Source: Bacteroidota bacterium (GTDB taxonomy: Bacteria > Bacteroidota > Ignavibacteria > Ignavibacteriales > Ignavibacteriaceae). From it: 32,525 bases of DNA. The position numbers and the translations under genes are program-made. Below the pieces are notes generated by a model, which did no database searches, was not told where the DNA came from, and saw nothing but the letters and a program-made list of their open reading frames with translations. The stretch spans positions 1 through 32,525 of the forward strand of contig JAJYSI010000002.1 in the NCBI GenBank assembly GCA_021793635.1, given 5' to 3'. Shown here piece by piece: positions 3,723 through 31,906 of this stretch. Numbering within the stretch: the first letter of the stretch is position 1; each line of letters begins with the position of its first letter.

Positions 3723-4700
3723 ATGTTAGTGAAATCAACAGAAAAATTTATTCATAAGAAAATTTTCCTTGCCGGTCATCGCGGAATGGTTGGTTCGGCA
3801 ATAAAAAGAAATCTTGAACACAATGGTTATAATCATTTAATTACTCGTTCGCAGGCAGAATTAGATTTGATTAAACAAAATGAGGTCGATAATTTTTTTT
3901 CAAAAGAAAAACCTGAGTGTGTTATAATAGCCGCTGCAAAAGTAGGCGGAATTTGGGCTAATAATATTTATCGTGCAGATTTTATTTATAATAATTTGAT
4001 GATCGAAGCAAATATTATAAATGCAGCTTACAAAAGCGGAACTGAGAAATTAATTTTTCTTGGAAGCTCGTGCATATATCCAAAACTCGCTCCTCAGCCT
4101 TTGAAGGAAGAATATCTTTTATCCGATTATCTTGAATTTACTAATGAACCTTATGCCATCGCAAAAATAGCAGGCATTAAATTGTGCGAAAGTTTTTATC
4201 GCCAATACGGCGTTAATTTTTATTCAGCCATGCCGACAAACCTCTTTGGACCGTATGATAATTTTGATCTTGAAACTTCTCATGTCCTTCCTGCACTGAT
4301 TAGAAAAATTCACGAAGCAAAAAATCAAAAAGATATAAATAATTCCGTTACTCTTTGGGGAACGGGTAAACCCAGAAGAGAATTTCTTTATGTTGAAGAT
4401 TTAGCGGAAGCAATCCGCTATCTTCTTGAAAATGTTGAAGCCAAAGATTTATATGAAAACGGAATTTCTCAAATAAATATTGGCACCGGTGAAGATTTGT
4501 CAATAAATGAATTAGCCGGATTAATTTCTAAAGTTGTCGGTTTCAACGGAAATGTTGAATACGATAATTCCAAGCCGGACGGCACTCCGCGTAAGTTGAT
4601 GGACGTTTCAAGAATCCACAAACTCGGATGGAAGCATCAAACACAACTCAAAGAAGGCATCGAAAAAACTTACGACTGGTTTCTTTCAAGTAAAAATTAA
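3723..4700 (+). CDS. fcl: GDP-L-fucose synthase
   Basis: Fcl is the epimerase-reductase that turns GDP-4-keto-6-deoxymannose into GDP-L-fucose using NADPH. It is an extended short-chain dehydrogenase. The Rossmann motif GHRGMVGSAI lies near the N terminus, AAAKVGGIWAN follows, and SSCIYP holds the catalytic Ser with the neighbouring Cys typical of Fcl. The Tyr-Lys pair is in YAIAKIAG, and NLFGPYDNFD and GTGKPRREFLYV follow. I placed the start at the ATG at 3723; an in-frame TTG at 3717 and a GTG at 3729 are alternatives, and no strong ribosome site decides. It ends the plus-strand sugar run. Its pathway partner gmd lies about 5.1 kb downstream, beyond an accessory block. Confidence 0.94.
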   Translation: MLVKSTEKFIHKKIFLAGHRGMVGSAIKRNLEHNGYNHLITRSQAELDLIKQNEVDNFFSKEKPECVIIAAAKVGGIWANNIYRADFIYNNLMIEANIINAAYKSGTEKLIFLGSSCIYPKLAPQPLKEEYLLSDYLEFTNEPYAIAKIAGIKLCESFYRQYGVNFYSAMPTNLFGPYDNFDLETSHVLPALIRKIHEAKNQKDINNSVTLWGTGKPRREFLYVEDLAEAIRYLLENVEAKDLYENGISQINIGTGEDLSINELAGLISKVVGFNGNVEYDNSKPDGTPRKLMDVSRIHKLGWKHQTQLKEGIEKTYDWFLSSKN

Positions 4701-4705
4701 CGGCG

Positions 4706-4728
4706 TTGTGGCTAAGGCGCAGCCACAA
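4706..4728. terminator. Hairpin just after fcl, possible terminator or island edge
   Basis: TTGTGGCT and AGCCACAA form a perfect 8-bp stem around the 7-base loop AAGGCGC, starting five bases after the fcl stop codon. On the plus strand it is followed by ATTAC rather than a T-run, so it is not a classical intrinsic terminator. It sits exactly where the plus-strand sugar genes give way to the minus-strand accessory block. The 8-mer CGTTGTGG at its left edge recurs at 5549-5556 within the block. Confidence 0.45.
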
Positions 4729-4792
4729 ATTACAATACCGAACTTGTTAATTATATTTCTAAGAATATTTATTCGCCACAAAACGCTCCGGG

Positions 4793-5562: not shown

Positions 5563-5610
5563 TGCCTGTTACCAGACGTCCCTCACACACGGGTGGAAAA
5601 GCTGGTTAGG
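5563..5610. repeat. Imperfect palindrome 3' of the T9SS propeller gene (attC-like site 1)
   Basis: Directly beyond the stop of the T9SS gene, the plus strand reads AATGCCTGTTACCAG, then an inner CCC/GGG hairpin around CCCTCACACACGGG, then CTGGTTAGG. CCAG/CTGG and the flanking GCCT/AGG ends pair. On the minus strand the palindrome is followed by AGGCATT, echoing the TTAGGCATT at two of the leader modules. The size (about 48 bp) and the terminal heptamers recall integron attC sites, but the heptamers are not fully canonical, so the class is unproven. Confidence 0.4.
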
Positions 5611-5612
5611 AA

Positions 5613-6869
5613 TTATTTTAGCACAATTAATTTTTTCGTCTCTACAAAACTGCCCGCTTGCATTCTGTAAAAATAAACTCCGCTTGTAAGTTTGCTAGCA
5701 TTTAATTCAACACTATAATTTCCAGAACGCGTTTCATGGTTGACTAGAGTCGTTATTTCTTTTCCCAAAACATCATTAACTTTTAATGTAACAAAACTGG
5801 TTTTAGGAACGGAGTAGTTTATTGTTGTTGTTGGATTGAATGGGTTGGGATAGTTTTGCTGCAGGGAAAAACTTATTGGGAAATTATTTTGTTTATCTTC
5901 AATAGCGGTTATTATTTCAGATAACGGACACCGCCAAACACCATTACCAGCAGTACCCACAAAAATATTGGGCCCAATTATATCAAGTGAATTAACATTA
6001 ATATTTGTTGGTAATCCATTATTAACTTGGGACCACATTGCTCCATTATTAGTGGAAAGATAAACTTTATGATTATTAGTTGTCGCATCATACGTTCCAA
6101 TAAAAATATTTGTACCACTCACAGCAAAAGAAAAAATCCAAGAATTATTTGGTAAGCCATTATTAACTTGTAACCAACTTATTCCGTTATTTTGTGAAAG
6201 ATAAACTCCAGCACCACTAGTTCCTGCGAATATATTTTTTCCACTTAGGGCAAGAGAATTAACATAAGAATTTGGTAATCCGTTATTTACTTGTGTCCAA
6301 TTTGTACCGTTGTTAGTAGAAAGGAAGACGCCAACTTGAGTGCCAGCAAAAATCATAGTATCATTTGCGACAAGAGAAAGAATCCAAGAATTTGTTGGTA
6401 ATCCATTATTAACTTGTGACCAGTTTTTTCCGTTATTAGTGGAAAGATAAACTCCCCCCAGCAAAGCCCCTGCAAATATATTAGTGCCGCTAACGGCTAA
6501 CGAAGTAATATAAACGTTATTTGGCAAACCGTTATTTAATAAACTCCAACTTGTGCCGCTATTTGAAGAAAAAAAGACTCCACCACTATCCCCACCAGTA
6601 CCTATAAAAATTCTCTCTCCTACTACAGCAAATGCATTAATAGTAGAATCCGAAAGGCCAAAATTAACTTTAGCCCAGTTCTCCCCATTATTTGTAGAAA
6701 GATAAACGCCATTAACGTCAGTTCCTGCAAAGATATTTGTACCACTTGAGGCAAGACAATTTATAACATCACCATAAAGTCCATTAGTTTGTACCCACTG
6801 TGCAAATGAATATTGTGTAATTAAGAGAGTATAAACTATTGCGAAAATTGTAACACTAAATATTTTCAT
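5613..6869 (-). CDS. Secreted seven-repeat propeller protein with type IX sorting domain
   Basis: The start at 6869 follows TTAGGAG with proper spacing and gives a Sec signal peptide (MKIFSVTIFAIVYTLL, then Ala-Gln cleavage region YSFAQW). The 418-residue protein then has seven units of about 40-47 residues, each built on a pattern like G-NIFAGT--GVYLSTNNG--W-QVNNGLP. The STNNG--W part is an Asp-box/BNR-type turn, so a seven-bladed propeller is likely. After residue about 325 comes a Por/T9SS C-terminal domain: NYPNPFNPTTTINYSVP, then DVLGKEITTLV and SGVYFYRMQ. Such proteins are exported by the Sec and T9SS machineries to the surface or outside. Ligand or activity cannot be told. The gene carries the shared leader (6862-6952) and lies in the accessory block. 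Confidence 0.85.
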   Translation of the reverse strand: MKIFSVTIFAIVYTLLITQYSFAQWVQTNGLYGDVINCLASSGTNIFAGTDVNGVYLSTNNGENWAKVNFGLSDSTINAFAVVGERIFIGTGGDSGGVFFSSNSGTSWSLLNNGLPNNVYITSLAVSGTNIFAGALLGGVYLSTNNGKNWSQVNNGLPTNSWILSLVANDTMIFAGTQVGVFLSTNNGTNWTQVNNGLPNSYVNSLALSGKNIFAGTSGAGVYLSQNNGISWLQVNNGLPNNSWIFSFAVSGTNIFIGTYDATTNNHKVYLSTNNGAMWSQVNNGLPTNINVNSLDIIGPNIFVGTAGNGVWRCPLSEIITAIEDKQNNFPISFSLQQNYPNPFNPTTTINYSVPKTSFVTLKVNDVLGKEITTLVNHETRSGNYSVELNASKLTSGVYFYRMQAGSFVETKKLIVLK

Positions 6870-6952
6870 AAATACTCCTAAATTTAATTTGTCCATGCTT
6901 ATACATATTAAATTCAAGCAACCTGCTAATTGCATTTAAAACAGGCACCTAA
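6862..6952 (-). promoter_or_regulatory. Shared leader module, copy 1 (before T9SS gene)
   Basis: About 90 bp ending at the start codon of the T9SS gene. On the minus strand it begins TTAGGTGCC and ends AAATTAAATTTAGGAGTATT followed by TATG. It aligns over most of its length with copies 2 and 3, best over the last 35 bases, which hold the ribosome site TTAGGAGT. It is the most diverged of the three. It probably carries promoter, untranslated leader and ribosome site, but no clean -35/-10 pair was identified. Confidence 0.6.
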
Positions 6953-7012
6953 TTAGCTTACCAATCAGTAATCGATCGCTTGGAAAGGTATTCGGTTTGA
7001 AGAACGTTAGGC
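6947..7012. repeat. Imperfect palindrome between cassette-like units (attC-like site 2)
   Basis: Plus strand ACCTAAT (6947-6953) and GTTAGGC (7006-7012) form the outer arms. CTTACCAA (6957-6964) and TTGGAAAG (6980-6987) form an inner stem with one mismatch around a 15-base centre containing ATCGAT. Outer RYYYAAY/GTTRRRY-like boxes, an inner stem and a total of 66 bp resemble an integron attC site. The spacers are unequal (3 and 18 bases), which is atypical. It lies between the frameshifted membrane-protein gene and the T9SS gene and abuts leader copy 1. Confidence 0.4.
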
Positions 7013-7033
7013 ATTGTACAAAATAGAATTAGT

Positions 7034-7355
7034 TCACTCAGCAGACCTACCTTGTTTTTCTTCGTTGAGCCAATTAGTTCCTTTATAAATATTTCCTTCT
7101 TCATCAACTCTACCTTTTAGTTCTTCATTAAACCAATCTGTCCCCGAATAAATTTTCTTCCCTTTTAGTCCAGCGTAGTCAATTATATTTTCCTCTCGGT
7201 TACGCAAAACTCTATTCGGCTTAGCTGTACTTGGCTGAGTTGAACTATCCGAAGTTAATTTGAAATTTATCAACATTATTATCAACTACTTGATTATTTA
7301 ATAACGCAATAATAATTCCAATTATAAATGGCGAAAAAAGTATCAAATATTCCAT
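7034..7355 (-). pseudogene. Small membrane-anchored protein with tandem GTxW-NEE repeats, apparently frameshifted
   Basis: An ATG at 7355, preceded by AAAGGTGTTAAGT, starts a hydrophobic N terminus (MEYLILFSPFIIGIIIALLN) that runs to a TAG at 7247-7245. A second frame, open from about 7285 to the TGA at 7034, continues with a Ser/Thr/Pro linker. It then has two related units, KIYSGTDWFNEELKGR and NIYKGTNWLNEEKQGR. The second frame has no good start of its own (only a TTG inside the first frame). The two overlap by about 40 bases, so a single-base indel there would join them into one membrane-anchored protein of about 106 residues. Family not recognised; the repeats suggest a small beta-rich surface or periplasmic domain. 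Two overlapping genes remain an alternative. Confidence 0.5.
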
Positions 7356-7419
7356 ACTTAACACCTTTATAAAATGGGGAAATAAAATTATTCTATTCCT
7401 CCTACTGATAATAAAAAAA

Positions 7420-7704
7420 TTATTTTTCTGGCTCGGTCATTTTTAAACTGTCGCAACCAACTTTTACACAATTAACTTGGCGAACCATATCATCAGCATC
7501 GCATTCATAACAACCATTTGGTGTTTTTGCGTACCAAGAAACTGTGGAAACGCCTCTTTTTACATTATAAATTGTAACATCTTGCAACCTTGTATTTCCA
7601 ATCTGTTTGGCTGTTGCCCTTTGAAGGCTTTCGGTGGATGATGCACATGAAGCGAAAAAAAATGCGAAGGAAAAGAGGAAGAAAATTTTAAATAGAGTTT
7701 TCAT
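7420..7704 (-). CDS. Small lipoprotein, function unknown
   Basis: The start at 7704 lies 6 bases after TTAGGAGT and gives a 94-residue protein with a lipoprotein signal peptide: MKTLFKIFFLFSFAFFFASC, with the lipobox Cys at position 20. After it come TESLQRATAKQIG and a compact domain with DVTIYNVKRGVSTVSWYAKT, then four closely placed Cys-containing segments (NGCYECDADD and VNCVKVGCDS). Four cysteines in the C-terminal half could form disulfides or bind metal outside the cytoplasm. A longer in-frame reading to 7818 exists but would put the signal peptide inside the protein, so I reject it. The gene has leader copy 2. I do not recognise a named family. Confidence 0.75.
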   Translation of the reverse strand: MKTLFKIFFLFSFAFFFASCASSTESLQRATAKQIGNTRLQDVTIYNVKRGVSTVSWYAKTPNGCYECDADDMVRQVNCVKVGCDSLKMTEPEK

Positions 7705-7787
7705 AATGACTCCTAAATTTAATTTGGCAATGTTTTTATAAATTAAAGTCAGACACTGGCACATTGCCATTAAGCCAAAATGCCTAA
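7697..7787 (-). promoter_or_regulatory. Shared leader module, copy 2 (before lipoprotein gene)
   Basis: Minus strand: begins TTAGGCATTTTGGCTTAATG and ends TTGCCAAATTAAATTTAGGA, then GTCATTATGAAAAC. Against copy 3 about three quarters of positions match by eye, with small indels. The similarity begins at the TTAGGC heptamer and runs into the first codons. The bases 5' of the heptamer (GAAACG) differ from those at copy 3, so the heptamer marks a real boundary. This copy has the canonical integron-like GTTAGGC. Confidence 0.7.
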
Positions 7788-7813
7788 CGTTTCGTATAAC
7801 CGGCTGGCAATGT
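7761..7813. repeat. Inverted repeat centred on the TTAGGC boundary (site 3)
   Basis: ACATTGCC (7761-7768) pairs with GGCAATGT (7806-7813) and AGCC (7773-7776) with GGCT (7802-7805). The 25-base loop contains GCCTAACGTT and TTCGTATAACC. The palindrome spans the junction between the 3' end of the DUF5683-like gene and leader copy 2. The minus-strand end GTTATACGAAACGTTAGGC looks like the 3' half of an integron attC site, but its complementary 5' half (AATAACTTCACAC) is weak. Confidence 0.45.
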
Positions 7814-7833
7814 AGCACAGTGTGAAGTTATTT

Positions 7834-8424
7834 TTAAAGATTAATCTTAAACGATAAATTTGCACTGAACTTATTAGAAATATTTGTCCCGATTAAATGT
7901 GGTGAATTATTAAACATATTAATTTGAAAAGAAAAACCTTCTTCGGCATTAAGCTCTTTGGCCCGATTGCCCGCATCGATGATACTGTAAATGGAATTTC
8001 CAAGCATACCGATGAGTCCGACCCATAGTAAGGGATTAATGGCACTCGCTACGTTGACGTTAATGCTTGAATAGGTATTACTGACAGCGGGCTCACTGGG
8101 ATTAAGCGCGCCGACGATCATGAGAATAAAAAACCCGCCCTGCCCCACAGCCATAATCGTACCTTTGGTGGTCTCGGTCGGACCATTATAAAATTGTCCC
8201 AACCCAGGCCATACCGCCGACATAAGCATGGCATGACCCGGATCCCGTTTTTCAATCAATAAGGTTTTATTGAATTGAGTGGCAAATAAACTCATATTCT
8301 CTCCGGACACCTTACTGATATCGGCCGTTGACATGGCTTGAGAAAGGTTTTCATTCCGAAATTGAGCAGAGGCAAATCCGGACAAAGCAATGAACACTGC
8401 AAATAACAAATAATATGTTTTCAT
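7834..8424 (-). CDS. DUF5683-like integral membrane protein with signal peptide
   Basis: The start at 8424 follows GTTAGGAG with 5-base spacing and gives a 196-residue protein with a Sec signal (MKTYYLLFAVFIALSGFASA, then QF). The middle has MLMSAVWPGLGQFYNG, the turn typical of DUF5683/TM2-like proteins, then KGTIMAVGQGGFFILMIVGA, a membrane helix. A second hydrophobic stretch (INPLLWVGLIGMLGNSIYSI) leads into DAGNRAKELN, another family hallmark. The C terminus is a short beta-like tail ending FSANLSFKINL. The role of the family is not established; it is found in cell envelopes of Bacteroidota and relatives. The upstream in-frame extension to 8496 is rejected because it would bury the signal peptide. 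Parts are GC-richer than surrounding genes. Confidence 0.75.
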   Translation of the reverse strand: MKTYYLLFAVFIALSGFASAQFRNENLSQAMSTADISKVSGENMSLFATQFNKTLLIEKRDPGHAMLMSAVWPGLGQFYNGPTETTKGTIMAVGQGGFFILMIVGALNPSEPAVSNTYSSINVNVASAINPLLWVGLIGMLGNSIYSIIDAGNRAKELNAEEGFSFQINMFNNSPHLIGTNISNKFSANLSFKINL

Positions 8425-8505
8425 AATTACTCCTAACTTTAGTTTGGCAACGATTTTTAGATTAAAGTTAAGCATTGGTTCGCTGCCGTTAACCAAAATG
8501 CCTAA
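8417..8505 (-). promoter_or_regulatory. Shared leader module, copy 3 (before DUF5683-like gene)
   Basis: Minus strand: begins TTAGGCATTTTGGTTAACGG and ends TTGCCAAACTAAAGTTAGGA, then GTAATTATGAAAAC. It aligns end to end with copy 2. The base before the heptamer is A (ATTAGGC) rather than the G an active integron crossover point needs. The ribosome site GTTAGGAG is well placed. All three copies precede genes whose products start with a secretion signal. Confidence 0.7.
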
Positions 8506-8580
8506 TTATTTTTTTACAAATTTGCAATAAGTAACTAACTTTCTAACGAAAAAAATGATACCGAGTTTAAAACAAAAAAA

Positions 8581-8735
8581 GGACGCAACTTCCGTTACAT
8601 CCTTACACGAGGCACTGGTATGCCCATCACAAAGACATAAGAAAGTGCGTCCATTTCTGGACGCAACCTTCTTGCTTGTTCTTGTGATTTGAAAATTACC
8701 AGTTTTCGTGTAAGAACAACGCAATAGCTGCGTTA
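8581..8735. repeat. Long imperfect palindrome able to form a ~113-nt nested hairpin
   Basis: Nested arms, outside to inside: CTTACACGA 8602-8610 with 8706-8714 (9 bp); ACTGGTA 8614-8620 with 8697-8703 (7 bp); ATCACAA 8626-8632 with 8682-8688 (7 bp); AAGAAAG 8639-8645 with CCTTCTT 8667-8673 (6 bp plus a G-U if read from the minus strand); TGCGTCCA 8646-8653 with 8658-8665 (8 bp). The tip is TTTC on plus, GAAA (a GNRA loop) on minus. Weaker similarity continues outward to 8581 (GGACGCAAC) and 8735 (TGCGTT), and the whole is flanked by A7 and A6 runs. On minus it is followed by seven T, so it could end transcription of the ORF6N gene. A miniature transposable element or an unusual attC-like site are alternatives. 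Confidence 0.75.
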
Positions 8736-8765
8736 AAAAATTATGTTAAAAGTTTAGTTTATTGT

Positions 8766-9314
8766 TTAGCTCCTTTCAAAATATTTAACTTTTAGTTCTT
8801 TAACCCGAAAACCAATTTGCTGTTTAGGTTTTTCAGGTGGAGTAATTAGTTGGTTTATAGCTTCGAATATTGCCATAATTTGTTCATCATGAGATTCAAA
8901 CTTCAATTCGAGTTCTTTCAATTTTTGGGCAAGTTCTTTATGTGTGGACAGAATTTCTCTAAGTTTAACAAAAGCTCTCATAATTTGGATGTTAACTTGC
9001 ACTGCACTTTGGCTTTTCAGGACAGATGAAAGCATTGCTATACCTTGCTCGGTAAAGGCATAGGGAAGTTTGCGAATGCCTCCCCAACTTGAAGTCACAA
9101 TTTGTGACTTCAAGTTGGTCCATTCCTGATGATTGAACTGAAACATAAAGTCTTCAGGAAAACGTTCTAAGTTCCGTTTTATCGATTGCATTAATACCTT
9201 ATGTCCGACACCATAAAGTTCAGCAAGGTGAATACTAAGCATTACCTTTTGACTGCGAATGATAAATATTTTTTTTTCAACCACTTCAATAGGGAAAGGA
9301 TTAGGAATTACCAA
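8766..9314 (-). CDS. ORF6N-domain protein (phage-type DNA-binding)
   Basis: The 182-residue protein carries an ORF6N domain at residues about 10-95: IRSQKVMLSIHLAELYGV, then KRNLERFPEDFMFQF and the typical LPYAFTEQGIAMLSSVL. A following segment (VQVNIQIMRAFVKLREIL) and a charged coiled-coil region (about residues 120-160) complete the usual layout. ORF6N domains occur in phage antirepressor-like proteins and in mobile or island regions; most chromosomal copies have no known role. The start is a TTG at 9314 with a strong ribosome site (AAGGAG, 5 bases before); there is no ATG nearby in frame. It lies 14 bases after the nucleotidyltransferase remnant, and the long palindrome follows its stop. 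Confidence 0.85.
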   Translation of the reverse strand: MVIPNPFPIEVVEKKIFIIRSQKVMLSIHLAELYGVGHKVLMQSIKRNLERFPEDFMFQFNHQEWTNLKSQIVTSSWGGIRKLPYAFTEQGIAMLSSVLKSQSAVQVNIQIMRAFVKLREILSTHKELAQKLKELELKFESHDEQIMAIFEAINQLITPPEKPKQQIGFRVKELKVKYFERS

Positions 9315-10993: not shown

Positions 10994-11866
10994 TCATTTT
11001 CTATTTACTAAAATTACTCCGACTGTAATTATCAATCCGCTCAGAATTATTGTCAAGGTTATGGTTTCGCTTAAAATAAGCCACGCTGACAAAACTGTAA
11101 CGAAAGGTTCGAGATATAAAAAAGAGCCTACTTTTGTTGCGTCAAGTTCCTTTAGTGATTTTGCCCAAAGAACATAAGCAATACCTGAACAGAAAATTCC
11201 AAGGAATAAGATAGAACCCCAGCCTATTAAAGAAAGATGAATTACCGCATTTATTGATTGCCTAGTTACCGTAAATGGCGAAATAATTACTGCCATCATT
11301 ATAAATAAAAAAAGGATTGTCATCATTGGCGGATATTTTAGACTAATCTTTTTATTTACCAGTGAATAAACACTCCAAGTAAATGCACTTGCAAGTACCA
11401 GCAAATCTCCTTTCTGTTCAATAAATTTAATATTTGACATATTGCTTCTGCTTACAAGAAGGATTAGCCCTGAAAATGCTACAATTATTCCGATAATTTT
11501 CGTTTTGCTGAGTTTTTCCTTAAAAAATATTATGCTTAGGATTGCCATAAATACCGGTGTGACTCCAACGATCCAGCCCGTACTTGCCGCCGAAGTATAC
11601 TCCAAACCCGTAACTTGAATCCAAAGATGAAAAACCGCAATAAGCGCTAAAATAAAAATTGCTCCGTGGTTTTTCAGATTTAAGGTAAAGTCTTTTTTGG
11701 TGTAAATAGCAAATACGGCAAGCAAAACAATTCCCAACAAAAGGCGAAGAAGAATTATCGTTTGTGGGTTTAACTCCCGTAGTGCAAGCTTAGTTGCAAT
11801 GAAAGAATTTCCCCATAAGATAACAGCTAAGAGCGGTTCCCAAAATCGGAGGAGTTTTTTTCTCAT
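10994..11866 (-). CDS. EamA/DMT-family transporter
   Basis: A 290-residue membrane protein with about ten hydrophobic helices in two homologous halves, the layout of EamA (DUF6) drug/metabolite transporters. The N-terminal half begins with WEPLLAVILWGNSFIATK, the usual first helix with a WG-NF/SF motif, then LRLLLGIVLLAVFAIY. The second half repeats the pattern at FTWSVYSLVNKKIS, and the last helices contain SGIAYVLWAKSLKEL, YLEPFVTVLSAWLIL and ILSGLIITVGVILVNRK. The family exports metabolites or amino acids; the substrate is unknown here. It follows the dCMP deaminase gene by 18 bases, so the three minus-strand genes back to 12925 are probably one transcript. It converges on gmd with only 28 bases between. 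Confidence 0.9.
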   Translation of the reverse strand: MRKKLLRFWEPLLAVILWGNSFIATKLALRELNPQTIILLRLLLGIVLLAVFAIYTKKDFTLNLKNHGAIFILALIAVFHLWIQVTGLEYTSAASTGWIVGVTPVFMAILSIIFFKEKLSKTKIIGIIVAFSGLILLVSRSNMSNIKFIEQKGDLLVLASAFTWSVYSLVNKKISLKYPPMMTILFLFIMMAVIISPFTVTRQSINAVIHLSLIGWGSILFLGIFCSGIAYVLWAKSLKELDATKVGSFLYLEPFVTVLSAWLILSETITLTIILSGLIITVGVILVNRK

Positions 11867-24790: not shown

Positions 24791-27244
24791 TTATTCAACC
24801 GGATTTATATCAACGTTATCTTCATCCGGTACAACCTTCGCGATATCGGCAATCATGTCGCCTTCGCTCAATCGAATTACTCTAACGCCCTGAGTATTTC
24901 TTCCCATTACCCGGATGTCTTTTACACTTTGTCTAATCACCATTCCTTTTGAGGAAATAATTACAAGCTCGTCGCCGTCGACAACATCCATTAAAGAAAT
25001 CATCTTACCGACTTTATCACTTGTTTTAACAGTGATAACGCCTTTGCCGCCGCGTTTTGTAATGCGATAATCATTAATGTCAGACCTTTTTCCGAAACCT
25101 TTTTCTGTAACAACTAAGATACTGTCATTTCTCTTAATAATAAGCAATCCGACAACTTTATCATCTTTGCTAAGTCTAACGCCTCTGACACCGGTAGCCG
25201 TTCTTCCCATATCCCGCACATCATTTTCGTGAAAGCGAATAGCGAATCCGCTTCGCGTACCAAGCACAATATCATTATTGCCCTCAGACATTTTAACGGC
25301 AATTAGTTTATCCCCTCCAGCAATATTTATTGCATTTATTCCACCCTTCCTAACATTTCCGTAAGCCGAGAGGACCGTTTTTTTAATGGTTCCTTTTTCG
25401 GTTGCCATTACAAGATAACTATCGTCTTTAAATTCTTTTACAGTCACGAACGCCGCAATGTTTTCATCTTTTTCTTTTTCAATAAGATTTAACATAGACC
25501 TTCCACGAGTAGCTCTTCCACCTTCCGGAAGTTCGTGAACTTTTATCCAGTAGCACTTTCCCTTATCTGTAAATAATAGAATGTAGTGATGTGTGGAAGC
25601 GACAAACATATGCTCGATAAAGTCATCGTCTTTGGTTCCTGCACCAGTGACACCCTTGCCACCTCGTCCTTGTTTACGGTAGCCACTTACGGGGAACCTT
25701 TTTATAAATCCACCATGGGTTATTGTAACAACAACATCTTCCTCTGCGATGATATCTTCAAGAGAAAACTCCTCGTAGTTGTAAATAATTTCGGTGCGTC
25801 TTGCATCGCCGTATTTTTCCTTAATTTCAAGTAACTCATCTTTGATAATTAAATATCTTTTTTCTTCGCTGGCAAGAATTCCCTTTAACTTTTCGATAAG
25901 CTTAATTATATCGCGGTATTCATCTTCTATTTTCTTTCTTTCCAGACCAGTTAATCTTTGCAGACGCATATCTAAAATTGCTTTAGCCTGAATTTCGCTA
26001 AGCTTAAAGCGCTTAATCAAATTAGCTTTAGCCGTTTCGACATCTTTAGACTTTTTGATGGTTTCGATTACCGCATCAATATTATCAAGCGCAATTATGT
26101 AACCTTCCAAAATATGTGCGCGTTTTTCGGCGGTATCTAATTCAAATTTTGTTCTTCTAATAAGAACATCCATTCGGTGGTTGATGAAATGCTGCATCAT
26201 TTCCTTAAGCACAAGAACCTTAGGCGCGCCGTTTACAAGAGCTAACATAATTACGCCGAAAGTAGTTTGCATTTGCGTATGCTTAAAAAGTTGATTAAGA
26301 ACCACCGGCGGTTGAGCATCGCGTTTTAATTCGATAACCACACGCATACCGTCACGGTCGGATTCGTCTCTGATATTTGAAATATCGCCAATTTTTCCTT
26401 CGTGAACCAGCTCTGCTATTTTTTCAATTAGATTTGCTTTATTTACCTGATACGGAAGCTCAGTTATAATGATATTATCTCTGCCGTTTTTTAAGCTTTC
26501 AATATTAGCTTTTGCACGAACTAAAATTCTTCCACGACCGGTTGTGTAAGCATCTTTTACACCACCGTAACCATAGATAATCCCGCCGGTTGGAAAATCG
26601 GGAGCTGTAACATATTTCATCAATTTTTCCGAAGTTAATTCGGGATTTTTAATAAGCGCAATCAAGCCATCAATGACTTCGGTTAAATTGTGCGGAGGAA
26701 TATTTGTAGCCATACCAACTGCGATTCCGCTGGAACCGTTAACAAGAAGATTGGGGAGATACGAGGGCATAACAGTTGGTTCTTGAAGCGAGTCGTCAAA
26801 GTTTGAGACAAAATTAACAGTGTTTTTATCCAAATCGCGAAGCATCTCTTCGGCAATTTTAGAAAGTCGTGCTTCTGTATAACGCATAGCCGCAGGTGAG
26901 TCGCCGTCGACAGAGCCAAAATTACCCTGCCCGTCGACCAAAGGATATCGAAGGGAAAAATCCTGCACCATTCTAACCATGGTATCATATACTGCCGTAT
27001 CGCCGTGGGGATGATATTTACCGAGAACCTCTCCGACAATTCTTGCCGACTTTTTATATGGTTTATTATAAGCAACTCCAAGTTCGTGCATCCCGTAAAG
27101 TACCCTCCTATGTACTGGCTTAAGTCCATCACGCACATCAGGCAAGGCACGAGCTACTATTACCGACATTGAATAATCTATGTAGGAAGATTTCATTTCA
27201 TCTTCGAGAGAAACGGGAATTATTTTTTCAAAAATTGTTGCCAT
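24791..27244 (-). CDS. gyrA: DNA gyrase subunit A
   Basis: Breaks and rejoins DNA in the gyrase A2B2 complex that adds negative supercoils. 817 residues, standard length. Catalytic Tyr122 lies in [10 protein letters not shown], with the same number as in E. coli. The quinolone region reads [11 protein letters not shown], with Thr83 where E. coli has Ser and Asp87 kept; Thr here is a common natural variant, though it can lower quinolone binding. The GyrA box is QGRGGKG, which marks gyrase rather than topoisomerase IV, and six DNA-wrapping blades follow. It ends with a modest acidic tail ([13 protein letters not shown]). It lies 143 bases after gyrB on the same strand, with only a weak ribosome site of its own. 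Confidence 0.97.
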
Positions 27245-27387
27245 GTTTTTTTCAATTAGTTTTTATGTTTAATATTCATTTTCTTCACATTGTGAATGCG
27301 AACCGAATAAAGTTATTTTCTTGGATTGAGTTTTTTCTAAATCGTTACCAATTATATTTTGAAACGTTTCTTTCGTTATAGTTAAAA

Positions 27388-29370
<1,983 letters not shown>

Positions 29371-29402
29371 CTAATTTATTTTAATTTTTCCGGATTCATA
29401 GT

Positions 29403-29693
29403 TCAAACAAACCGAATCCACTTTACTCTCTCTTCTTTGAAGTGATTATTTATCTTTTCAATTATTATCTGGTCTTTAAATTTTAATTCGCTTTTCCAAG
29501 CCGCACTTTCAGCAGATAGAAAAAGAGTTTTTTTTTCAACTTTAACTGCGGATACGACCATTCTTAAATCGGGAAATATTTTATAAAATGAGGCCACAAC
29601 TTCCGATTGTTTTAGCGAATTCCTAAAGGAGGACAATTCCGGATTATCGTTTACAATTTCGGCAAAACTGTGAAAATCTTTAGGCATAAACAA
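29403..29693 (-). CDS. dciA: DciA-like (DUF721) replication protein
   Basis: A 96-residue single-domain DUF721 protein. DciA proteins load or assist the replicative helicase DnaB in bacteria without DnaC/DnaI. The visible pattern is the C-terminal half LFLSAESAAWKSELKFKDQI followed by IEKINNHF and a final short strand (VKWIRFV), preceded by a helical part around LRMVVSAV. The start overlaps the last 14 bases of recF, so it is translationally coupled. The position between recF and gyrB is the common place for this family. Symbol given by family and context; function in this organism is inferred. Confidence 0.85.
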   Translation of the reverse strand: MFMPKDFHSFAEIVNDNPELSSFRNSLKQSEVVASFYKIFPDLRMVVSAVKVEKKTLFLSAESAAWKSELKFKDQIIIEKINNHFKEERVKWIRFV

Positions 29694-30795
29694 CCTGCCC
29701 GTTATTAAGTTTAATTACAAGATCATCATCTTCTTTTTTTAAGAAGGAAAAATCGGTAAAGTCCGTAAGTGTGATAAATGCTTGACCGACCTGGCGTAAA
29801 TACTCACTAATTCTAATCGATCTTTTTGCGTCAAGTTCTCCAAAAACATCATCAAGCAAAAATATCGGAGCCTTACCAGTAATTTCTTTAAGATAAAAAA
29901 ACTGAGCAAACCTTAAAACCACCTGAAAAGTTTTATGCTGACCTTGGGATCCATATGTTTTTAAATCAACATCATTTATTTTAAAAACAAAATCATCTCT
30001 GTGAGGACCGACTAGGTTTGATCCCCGGCGTATTTCATCATCTTTTCTTTTATGAAGAAGTTTAAAAAATATATCTTCAATGTTTTCTTCTTGGGAAAGC
30101 CCATCCAAGAACATATATTCTACGCCAGGAATTTCGTCATCGTTCAAAATTACTTTAAAAGAATCTTTTATAAAATCCTTAAATTTTCGAATAAATTTTA
30201 AGCGATGAATAATAATTTCTTTTCCGGAGGCAATCATCTTAGAATTCCACGCATCAAGTTCGTCGAATAAAGTTTTGTCTTTTGTTTCTTTAAGCTGCGC
30301 CAAGAGAGATGCTTTTTGACGAAGGGTTTTATTATAGTCCAATAGGTTTTTCAAATAAGTTTCACTTGCTTGTGAGATGACAGAATCAACAAACTTTCTA
30401 CGCTCTCCAGGAGCACCCTGTGTAATGGAGTGATCTATTGGCGTTAAAATAACCACCGGAAATTTCCCAATTATGTCAGCAGCTCTGGTTATATGCTTTC
30501 CGTTAAGAAAATAAATTTTCTTGTTAGAATTTAAGAAGTAAGAAATCCTTGCTTCACTGTTGCTGTAATCTTTAAATGAGCCAATTATTTCTAATTCGTT
30601 TTCGTTAAACCTTACCACTTCGCCGTCAAAATTTGAGTTGATACTTTTGGTTGTGCACAGATAATAAATAGATTCCAAAATAGATGTTTTGCCTTGTCCG
30701 TTGCCGCCAACAATATAATTTAATCTTTCTGAAAAAATCAGTTTGGTTTCTTTGTGGCTCCTAAAATTTTTTAATTTTACGGAGGATAAAATCAT
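29680..30795 (-). CDS. recF: DNA replication and repair protein RecF
   Basis: An SMC-like ATPase that helps RecO and RecR load RecA at gaps. 371 residues. Walker A is GGNGQGKTSILES near residue 31, after LKNFRSHKETKLIF. The ABC-type signature region is YGSQGQHKTFQVVLRFAQF, and Walker B with its catalytic acidic residue is FLLDDVFGELD. HITRAADIIGKFPVVILTP and APGERRKFVDSVISQ are also RecF hallmarks. Only one base separates its ATG from the dnaN stop, and its end overlaps dciA, so the three genes are tightly linked. Confidence 0.96.
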   Translation of the reverse strand: MILSSVKLKNFRSHKETKLIFSERLNYIVGGNGQGKTSILESIYYLCTTKSINSNFDGEVVRFNENELEIIGSFKDYSNSEARISYFLNSNKKIYFLNGKHITRAADIIGKFPVVILTPIDHSITQGAPGERRKFVDSVISQASETYLKNLLDYNKTLRQKASLLAQLKETKDKTLFDELDAWNSKMIASGKEIIIHRLKFIRKFKDFIKDSFKVILNDDEIPGVEYMFLDGLSQEENIEDIFFKLLHKRKDDEIRRGSNLVGPHRDDFVFKINDVDLKTYGSQGQHKTFQVVLRFAQFFYLKEITGKAPIFLLDDVFGELDAKRSIRISEYLRQVGQAFITLTDFTDFSFLKKEDDDLVIKLNNGQVVYA

Positions 30796-30796
30796 A

Positions 30797-31906
30797 TTAA
30801 TTATTTAGCCGAACCGGCATTAACAAAAGCATTAGATCTTCGTTGTCTTTCATTTTGGAAGGTTCAACAATACACGCTTTGGTTGGTGAATGAAGCTTAA
30901 AAATAACGTCTTCGTCCCCAACATGCGACAAAATATCGTTTACATATGACGTATTAAAACCAATATCCATTGATTCACCGGCATATTCACATAAAATTTT
31001 TTCTTTCGCGTTTGAACCGTGGTCAATATCTTCGGCGGATACTTCAAGCAAGTTTTTATTAATTGAAAATTTTACCTGTTTTGAATTTGAAGCTGAGAAT
31101 AACATCATTCTTTTAATGCTTGAGAGGAGATCGTTGGTTTTTACTTTTAAAATGTTTTCGTTTTCAATTGGAATAACACTGCTATATGAAGGATATTTTT
31201 CTCCTATTAGGCGTGTTATAAACTCCATATCATTTGTATGAAAAGAAATATTTGTTTTGCTAAGAAATATTCTGGCATCGTTTTCGTTTAATATTTTTGA
31301 CAGTACGGAAATCGCTCTTTCCGGCACAACATATTGATCTTCCTTGTTTGTCTTGATGTCCTTATTAATATATTTAACAAGACGGTGTCCGTCCGTAGTA
31401 ACAAACCTTAAACCTTGATCCGAAAATTCAAATAGTGTTCCAGTCATTGCGGGACGCATGTCTTCTTTGCTCATTGCGAACGCTGTTTGGTCAATAGCCT
31501 TTTTTAAGTCACTTCCGTTGATAACAACTTCAACTTCACCGGAAACATTTGGTATAGCTGGAAAATCTTCAGGAGAAGAATAGCCGATATTATAGACGCC
31601 GTTATCAGTTAATATTTTTATTTTTGAGTTTGATTCGGTTTCAAAATGAATTTGCGTGTCGTCTAGAGAACGAATTATATCGTACAAAAGTTTGGCGGGA
31701 ATAACCATTTTTGTATTTTCGTCAGCAGCAACATTTATTGATGAACGAAGTGATATTTCCAAATCCGTTGCACAAACAGTTAATGAGCCATCCTTAATTT
31801 CAAAAAGAAAATTTTCTAAAATGGGCATTGGTGTTCTGCTCGGAACTGCCGGAATAATTTTAGATAACAACTTTTCTAAAATTTTACTATTTACTTTGAA
31901 TTCCAT
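30797..31906 (-). CDS. dnaN: DNA polymerase III beta subunit (sliding clamp)
   Basis: The ring that tethers polymerase to DNA. 369 residues in the standard three-domain layout. The start MEFKVNSKILEKLLSKI and VPSRTPMPILENFLFEI are typical, followed by GTLFEFSDQGLRFVTTDGHR, the clamp's conserved domain-two block. The end reads MLLLMPVRLNN, matching the usual LMPVR(L) C terminus at the peptide-binding pocket. A GGAG ribosome site precedes the ATG by 11 bases. The gene heads the minus-strand replication block. A 108-bp spacer separates it from the lipoprotein gene and should contain its promoter. Confidence 0.97.
   Translation of the reverse strand: MEFKVNSKILEKLLSKIIPAVPSRTPMPILENFLFEIKDGSLTVCATDLEISLRSSINVAADENTKMVIPAKLLYDIIRSLDDTQIHFETESNSKIKILTDNGVYNIGYSSPEDFPAIPNVSGEVEVVINGSDLKKAIDQTAFAMSKEDMRPAMTGTLFEFSDQGLRFVTTDGHRLVKYINKDIKTNKEDQYVVPERAISVLSKILNENDARIFLSKTNISFHTNDMEFITRLIGEKYPSYSSVIPIENENILKVKTNDLLSSIKRMMLFSASNSKQVKFSINKNLLEVSAEDIDHGSNAKEKILCEYAGESMDIGFNTSYVNDILSHVGDEDVIFKLHSPTKACIVEPSKMKDNEDLMLLLMPVRLNN

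Follow-up and report, generated by a model that had tools for sequence, protein, structure and literature searches.

The stretch of DNA analysed here, the window, comprises 32,525 nt of an Ignavibacteriaceae genome (Bacteroidota bacterium, assembly GCA_021793635.1, contig JAJYSI010000002.1, positions 1 to 32,525). On its minus strand, three leaders of ~85 nt, each extending from TTAGG to ATG, stand ahead of three unrelated genes for exported proteins. From the computed conservation of this leader, its sharp boundary, its abutment on integron attC sites in other genomes, the covariation of its helices H1 and K and its association with exported products, we infer an RNA that acts in the cell and regulates, perhaps as a switch with a ligand or protein partner. 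It is a probable new RNA element with a conserved, predicted H-type pseudoknot. On balance we favour the view that the leader is a cis-acting RNA, forming the 5′ untranslated region (UTR) of envelope and secreted-protein genes and most likely controlling translation initiation, and that genes and leaders move as integron cassettes. A first-pass annotation had weighed modular units in tandem against a leader shared by envelope genes; both ideas look right jointly, the units being best read as integron cassettes and the leader as carrying a conserved RNA fold.

Leader copies and the genes behind them

The three copies, like the leader genes and attC remnants of the window described below, lie on the minus strand. 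Copy 3 (c3; 8422–8505, TTAGGCATTTTGG...TTAGGAGTAATTATG) is preceded by A, has no attC upstream and scores 87.9 bits with covariance model R3. Copy 2 (c2; 7702–7787) lies directly 3′ of a G (GTTAGGC) and scores 96.8 bits, and copy 1 (c1; 6867–6952, TTAGGTGCC...) scores 71.1 bits with helix K degraded to three of eight pairs. Identity over aligned letters amounts to 67/84 for c2–c3, 61/85 for c1–c2 and 56/84 for c1–c3; BLAST aligns c2 with the c3 copy of G001, the nearest comparison genome (35% shared words with the window), at 81% over 91 bp (E 1e-13). The common leader starting at a TTAGGC-type heptamer, as first annotated, is therefore borne out; the coordinates given for it (6862–6952, 7697–7787 and 8417–8505) place the copies correctly but include the first few codon bases at their ends. 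Similarity does stop at the heptamer: directly 5′ of TTAGG, mean pairwise identity is near background, at 0.26–0.34 (10-nt bins, 15 copies), compared with 0.66 inside (16 leaders), so that the leader forms a unit sharply delimited at its 5′ end. Past the start codon, identity drops from 0.56 to ~0.3 among leader copies of several genomes.

The c1 product (5613–6869, 418 aa) is a BNR/Sortilin propeller with a C-terminal sorting domain of the type IX secretion system (T9SS), matched in Pfam by Sortilin/BNR and Por_Secre_tail; the c2 product (7420–7704) is a 94-aa lipoprotein in which Pfam matched no domain; the c3 product (7834–8424, 196 aa) reaches DUF5683 at 23.4 bits, below the cut-off of 26.7. 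Of the names proposed earlier, T9SS propeller and lipoprotein thus hold, while DUF5683-like falls short of the Pfam threshold. The three proteins were rightly called unrelated, as BLASTP finds no mutual similarity among them at E ≤ 1e-3. Reading of the sequences reveals a secretion signal on each, as had been claimed (signal peptide and T9SS tail in c1, lipobox (..FASC) in c2, signal peptide in c3), and all three pass a crude test of N-terminal hydrophobicity.

For searches in other genomes, a first covariance model, R1, contained mis-registered pairs and was set aside; R2 contains the pairs of helix K, and R3 omits them. R3 locates the leader in 13 of 164 order genomes (E ≤ 0.02), ahead of varied exported genes, as the first-pass annotation had anticipated for a mobile or regulatory module. 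With R2, 7 of 80 family genomes yield 13 copies (E ≤ 0.01), and 10 of the 164 order genomes are matched (E ≤ 1e-4). Built without G098, a genome of another family, R2 matches it at E 1.6e-13, which argues that the leader is not a product of chance. Carriers include a metagenome-assembled genome labelled Melioribacter roseus FI88 and Ignavibacteria bacterium X2_MaxBin.003, and one further weak copy in G110 lies between RE, a second RNA element described below, and the ATG of a lipoprotein gene. In G001, both R2 and R3 match the leader only at the locus equivalent to the window. With strict filters for large searches (E ≤ 5e-4), draws of 391 genomes from the class and 395 from the phylum yielded no leader outside the order; the matches, in 8 and 7 genomes, respectively, all fall within it. 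Our tally stands at 20 places with 19 distinct sequences, the window copies and their G001 counterparts being counted once and the weak G110 copy being included. BLAST over the 80 family genomes led to a relative positioned precisely at the edge of an attC in G060, and the models confirmed 3 of its 15 matches outside G001 as leaders (G060 C136, G021 C20:164717 and G064 C46); the other 12, which the models did not confirm, were dropped. Of ten contig pattern matches, seven hold no leader at E ≤ 1.

All 17 readable leader-gene products have a hydrophobic N-terminus, compared with 36% of 109 control open reading frames (ORFs), and all look exported or membrane-bound as judged from their sequences. 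Their families include YccF, Fib_succ_major, DUF4352, PEGA, a VWA protein with T9SS tail, GLUG and Lipoprotein_18; three leader units of G043 stand outside the 17. The leaders and genes appear to be reassorted, leader similarity not simply tracking gene similarity. The c3 and G098 proteins are related (34%), while c3 and G098 leaders are 0.77 alike versus 0.82 for c3 and the propeller leader of G028 and 0.80 for c3 and c2; c1 and G022 precede related propellers with leaders only 0.58 alike, and c1 and c2 leaders are 0.72 alike. Three points count on the other side. The hydrophobicity control is crude, as it takes ORFs from the first Met, leaves leader genes in and includes the window together with the equivalent G001 locus; as about a dozen families are represented, the 17 products do not count as 17 independent cases; and the related pair G064b/G021 (proteins 91% identical) retains similar leaders (0.83).

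These data bear on a local duplication of a single gene followed by divergence of its coding part, a reading suggested by the adjacency of the three copies and under which, as the first-pass annotation put it, the leader should occur only here. As the products are unrelated, 12 other genomes of the order carry the leader before other gene families, and leader similarity does not simply mirror gene similarity, this explanation is largely refuted, and we give it almost no credence.

The c2 unit differs between window and G001. Its second ORF region (7055–7262) is ~320 bp shorter than in G001 (L009 7543–8002), and the leader spacing is 835 instead of 1153, with overlapping BLAST pieces. Within the window, an imperfect 30-nt inverted repeat (73%; 7740–7834) spans the c3/c2 border, where the terminal part of the c3 unit looks like a segment of the c2 leader in reverse orientation.

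The predicted interleaved helices and the ribosome site

Two interleaved helices recur in the leaders: H1, in which TTAGGCATTYGGC pairs with GCCAATGTCTGA, and K, in which GGCAATG in the H1 loop pairs with CATTGCC downstream. From its start, the leader runs through H1, a 5-nt loop (TTAAC), the K 5′ arm, the H1 3′ arm (H1′), which follows without a gap, an ~18-nt A/U-rich loop, the K 3′ arm (K′), AAATTAAA, the Shine-Dalgarno sequence (SD) and ATG. In c2, H1 (7751–7785) pairs AGGCATTTTGGC (7785–7774) with GCCAGTGTCT (7760–7751) and holds the K 5′ arm in its loop, whereas K (7726–7768) pairs GGCAATGT (7768–7761) with ACATTGCC (7733–7726), so that both helices would combine to an H-type pseudoknot. 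SAM-II and preQ1 are H-type pseudoknot riboswitches of the topology S1-L1-S2-S1′-L3-S2′, located just 5′ of the SD. The present leader is predicted to share this topology and SD-proximal place; unlike them, its targets are envelope genes, and neither family is among its Rfam matches at E ≤ 5. Rfam 15 placed no family over the gathering cut-off in the window, and the seven matches at E ≤ 5 between 6800 and 8800 (E 0.54–4.6) are below cut-off and belong to unrelated families.

Covariation was tested on a MAFFT alignment of 19 leaders built from sequence only, with shuffles that ignore relatedness. In this alignment 84.1% of the cells pair (K 89.5%, H1 79.7%), and 13 of the 18 pairs display double-sided changes; none of 500 shuffles reaches any of the five measures used, and slid partners pair in 32–43%. 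Alignment-free duplex energies of H1 plus K, compared with dinucleotide shuffles, give a mean z of −3.9 and are negative in 19/19 leaders. A G.U pair in the mRNA strand becomes A.C in the opposite strand, which is the one that integrases use for attC. Over H1 and K of the 19 leaders, G.U cells outnumber A.C cells by 53 to 15 (49:10 without the inner H1 pairs); for the first 16 leaders the counts are 40:10 and, without the inner H1 pairs, 38:6 (nominal p 9e-7, shared ancestry ignored). This excess points to the mRNA strand as the one that folds.

Several observations weigh against the proposed fold and its control of translation. The H1+K duplex sum in G028 is not significant; taken alone, K does not outperform shuffles in c1, G028 and G132 and hardly does so in G043b; and the same holds for H1 in G110, which on its own does not outperform them. 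The minimum free energy of single leaders is only modestly below that of shuffles (z −0.4 to −1.6, six folded). Since R2 contains the K pairs, its recruits are biased towards K; the initial detection was by BLAST for G060, G021 and G064b and by the K-free R3 for G126, G132 and G110, with K being good in G126 and G110 and weak in G132. A further hairpin, H2, which would sequester the SD, finds no support as a conserved helix (G.U 2 versus A.C 12), and this makes an OFF state conjecture. The computed accessibility of the SD varies from 0.23 to 0.95.

A promoter or a palindromic protein-binding site on double-stranded DNA could likewise give rise to a conserved leader. In its favour, part of the leader is similar to AT-rich, promoter-like sequence, and G065, G050 and G038 have half-leader matches that lie, on the opposite strand, 5′ of housekeeping-type genes (named by reading). 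Such a site, however, does not need helices that interleave and covary with G.U, and we hold this explanation to be very unlikely. As an observation of its own, AT-rich stretches 5′ of housekeeping-type genes in L022, L029 and L033 (names by reading) are matched, on the opposite strand, by the leader's 3′ half and perhaps represent a promoter-like motif of the lineage.

With respect to mechanism, we propose that the leader folds as an H-type pseudoknot just 5′ of the SD and ATG. In c2, the sequence TTTAGG around the SD (AGGAG, 7710–7714) resembles the TTAGG of the leader start, and by sequence both can pair with the H1 3′ strand (CTGA). This strand (CYTRA) would pair alternatively with the leader-start TTAGG or with the near-identical TTAGG of the ribosome site. 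Because it is complementary to both, the ribosome site could stay open as long as the pseudoknot is formed and become closed, and so hidden, once the pseudoknot is lost. A constitutive translation enhancer or mRNA-stability pseudoknot, kept without any switching because cassettes lack a good 5′ UTR, would exhibit the same conserved fold and strong SD, and agrees with the unsupported H2 and OFF state. However, it offers no evident reason why the leader stands before exported and membrane products, occurs on some cassettes only and is not matched in the integrase-linked array of G001; we consider it a possible but distinctly less probable account than regulation of translation initiation by the leader.

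Probable integron cassettes and the recombination core

To the first-pass annotation, no known element name fitted with certainty. If the units are read as integron cassettes, a name does fit, and the TTAGGC heptamer corresponds to the R′ core of attC with its cut point, the first stem strand of the leader doubling as this core. An attC adjoins the leader in 6 of the 20 places (three copies in G043, and G060, G022 and G132), the cut point G^TTAGRC coinciding with the first base of the leader. These six leaders start exactly at TTAGGC or TTAGAC 3′ of G, and R′ (GTTAGGC or GTTAGAC) spans the border; in the window, c2 likewise follows a G, while c1 and c3 follow an A. A palindrome scan of our own for attC proved unspecific (34 found versus 27.5 in shuffled sequence), and a profile search was used instead. 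The first profile was made from ten seeds, and its matches to them carry no weight; a stricter profile has four seeds, none of which abuts a leader (three beside the G001 integrase and one of G060). The stricter profile recovers the attC before the leaders of G060, G132 and one of three G043 copies, as well as the attC 3′ of leader genes in G001 c1, G132 and G146; it loses that of G022 (partial, E 0.05) and two of the three G043 sites.

The G001 genome harbours an integron, with an integrase at 429 bits (cut-off 265) followed by cassettes with attC sites of ~187 bp. IntI exceeds the cut-off in 24 of 80 family genomes and in 7 of the 11 other leader genomes queried (G126 and G132 were outside the query), the G146 copy having an internal stop. 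Contig C111 of G001 carries the integrase and contig C3 the leader array, linkage across contig ends being possible; the cassettes of C111 (L021 8855–16677) share the strand of the integrase gene, and no leader matches this integrase-linked array.

The window locus looks like a decayed array of leader-bearing cassettes, with no integrase domain among the window ORFs scanned. Before c1, an attC-like remnant (6947–7012; GCCTAACGTTCTTC...ATTAGGT) has an R″ (GCCTAACGTTCTTCAAACCGA) similar to that of one attC of the G001 integron; it has a poor inner stem, is recognized by comparison only and is missed by both attC profiles. G001 has the whole attC 3′ of the propeller gene (L009 9516–9720), of which the window retains R″ (TCCTAAC, 5605–5611) within the ~20 first nt that are left. 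An attC right half (...GGCTGCGCCTTAGCCACAACGCCGTTA) at 4698–4770, with E 2.5e-6 in the first profile and E 0.046 in the stricter one, possibly marks the far end of the decayed array, and c2 has its GTTAGGC without a clear R″. Among the 31 of 42 listed window ORFs scanned with Pfam, there is neither an integrase nor a transposase domain, and between 4500 and 9900 no conspicuous long inverted repeat flanks the units. Two findings argue against cassettes as the general setting: an intact attC immediately 5′ of the leader is missing at 14 of the 20 places, and no integrase is found at E ≤ 1e-40 in G043, G021 or G109. In G043 (C1, L057), the three attC-leader units (7155–7238, 9228–9311 and 11242–11325) have leaders 96–100% alike that continue into fragments of T9SS C-terminal sorting domains without an in-frame start; these units look like deletion products that have lost their gene bodies.

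Cassettes are usually viewed as promoterless genes with short 5′ UTRs. The present units match integron cassettes and clusters of attC sites lacking integrases (CALIN) in the attC at the 5′ end in relatives, the cut G^TTRRRY, the single orientation, the unrelated genes and the integrase elsewhere in G001; they differ in that unrelated cassettes share a structured 5′ leader of ~85 nt. Complete integrons have been reported in Ignavibacteriae (PMC9024848), and the 5′ UTR of class 1 cassettes is generally short (PMC4670013; PMC9410878). PMC9410878 further describes how an aminoglycoside ‘riboswitch’ of class 1 integrons was disputed and then rejected by experiment, its leader being largely attI1. 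Like the present one, it is a conserved leader before cassette genes for which SD sequestration was proposed; unlike attI1, which is outside the cassette, the present leader is inside it, also occurs away from any detected attC and covaries with G.U on the mRNA strand. The cmlA cassette similarly has its own translational control region but uses a leader peptide and ribosome stalling for one gene (PMC8876359), whereas here a predicted pseudoknot recurs across about a dozen families.

As attC sites also covary as folded DNA, the leader might itself be a DNA recombination site, an attI- or attC-like folded single strand in which RNA structure is illusory. Indeed, the leader starts at the integrase core site, and H1 opens with TTAGGC and closes with its inverted copy GYYTRA. 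On the other hand, the leader is inside the cassette, downstream of the cut, and it follows RE in G028, G064, G098, G109 and G110, where the attC profile has no site in L060, L061, L063, L064 and L074. Moreover, the mismatches are mostly G.U rather than A.C (53:15), which is the pattern of the mRNA strand rather than of the attC bottom strand, and the position beside SD and ATG is conserved with exported products downstream. We therefore regard a pure DNA site as unlikely.

More tentatively, and with the odds against it, the leader may be a new RNA switch in which TTAGGC serves both as the first stem strand and as an integrase core site, and which provides envelope genes with a ready-made cassette 5′ end. 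A chromosomal gene behind RE and leader could then enter an integron via a cut at the GTTAGRC of its leader. Leaders without detected attC that already read GTTAGGC (G028, G126) or GTTAGAC (G098) are in line with this proposal, as are the row of RE, attC-less leader and leaders at attC-like borders in the window and the apparent reassortment of leaders and genes. Cassettes and pseudoknot leaders are each known kinds; what would be new is their fusion at the recombination core. Among the matches listed from the open PMC literature, titles and abstract openings held nothing that points to the leader, RE or this fusion. If the proposal is correct, incoming cassettes share one translational control, the integron arrays of the order are a shuffling bank of surface and secreted proteins, and there is a concrete route by which cassettes acquire their 5′ ends. 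A covarying leader common to unrelated exported-protein cassettes would show that mobile genes of integrons carry a common RNA control, and the overlap of first RNA stem and recombination core makes the origin of cassette 5′ ends directly testable.

The element RE and the surrounding genes

Upstream of c3, RE (8570–8745, minus strand, ~175 nt) consists of a long covarying hairpin that closes with an intrinsic terminator. It occurs in 23 of the 164 order genomes, with 44 matches listed, and in 13 of 395 genomes of the phylum draw, including two strong and three short weak matches outside the order. We examined 29 copies, namely the window and 28 of 30 loci (L067–L096) with a long match. Over these, 16 of 46 predicted pairs undergo double-sided changes. 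Under a loose criterion (a start within 350 nt, on the same strand, of an ORF of 60 aa or more), 28 of the 29 are followed by a reading frame; the remaining copy runs off its contig. As judged by reading, the genes 3′ of RE include those for lipoproteins, secreted proteins, response regulators and a chemoreceptor-like protein. Neither for RE in the window nor for 12 RE loci does any Rfam family exceed its cut-off. The 3′ arm of the terminator (GTTGCGTCC) repeats the 5′ arm of an inner hairpin, which suggests antitermination, and RE may be considered a riboswitch candidate on the basis of its predicted structure.

The leader lies 3′ of RE in G001 and the window, G098, G064 and G109; in G110 the copy at this place is weak, and in G028 the succession extends over two contigs that share an exact 47-nt end. 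RE and leader are thus recurrent partners.

Upstream, RE is adjoined by a gene for an ORF6N-domain protein (8766–9314, minus strand; Pfam 2.6e-30), which among the 30 RE loci (~1.5 kb flanks) recurs only in G001. Farther away, gyrA, gyrB, DciA, a RecF-like gene and dnaN cluster on the minus strand at 24791–31906, placing the cassette array ~16 kb from a gene block of the replication-origin type.

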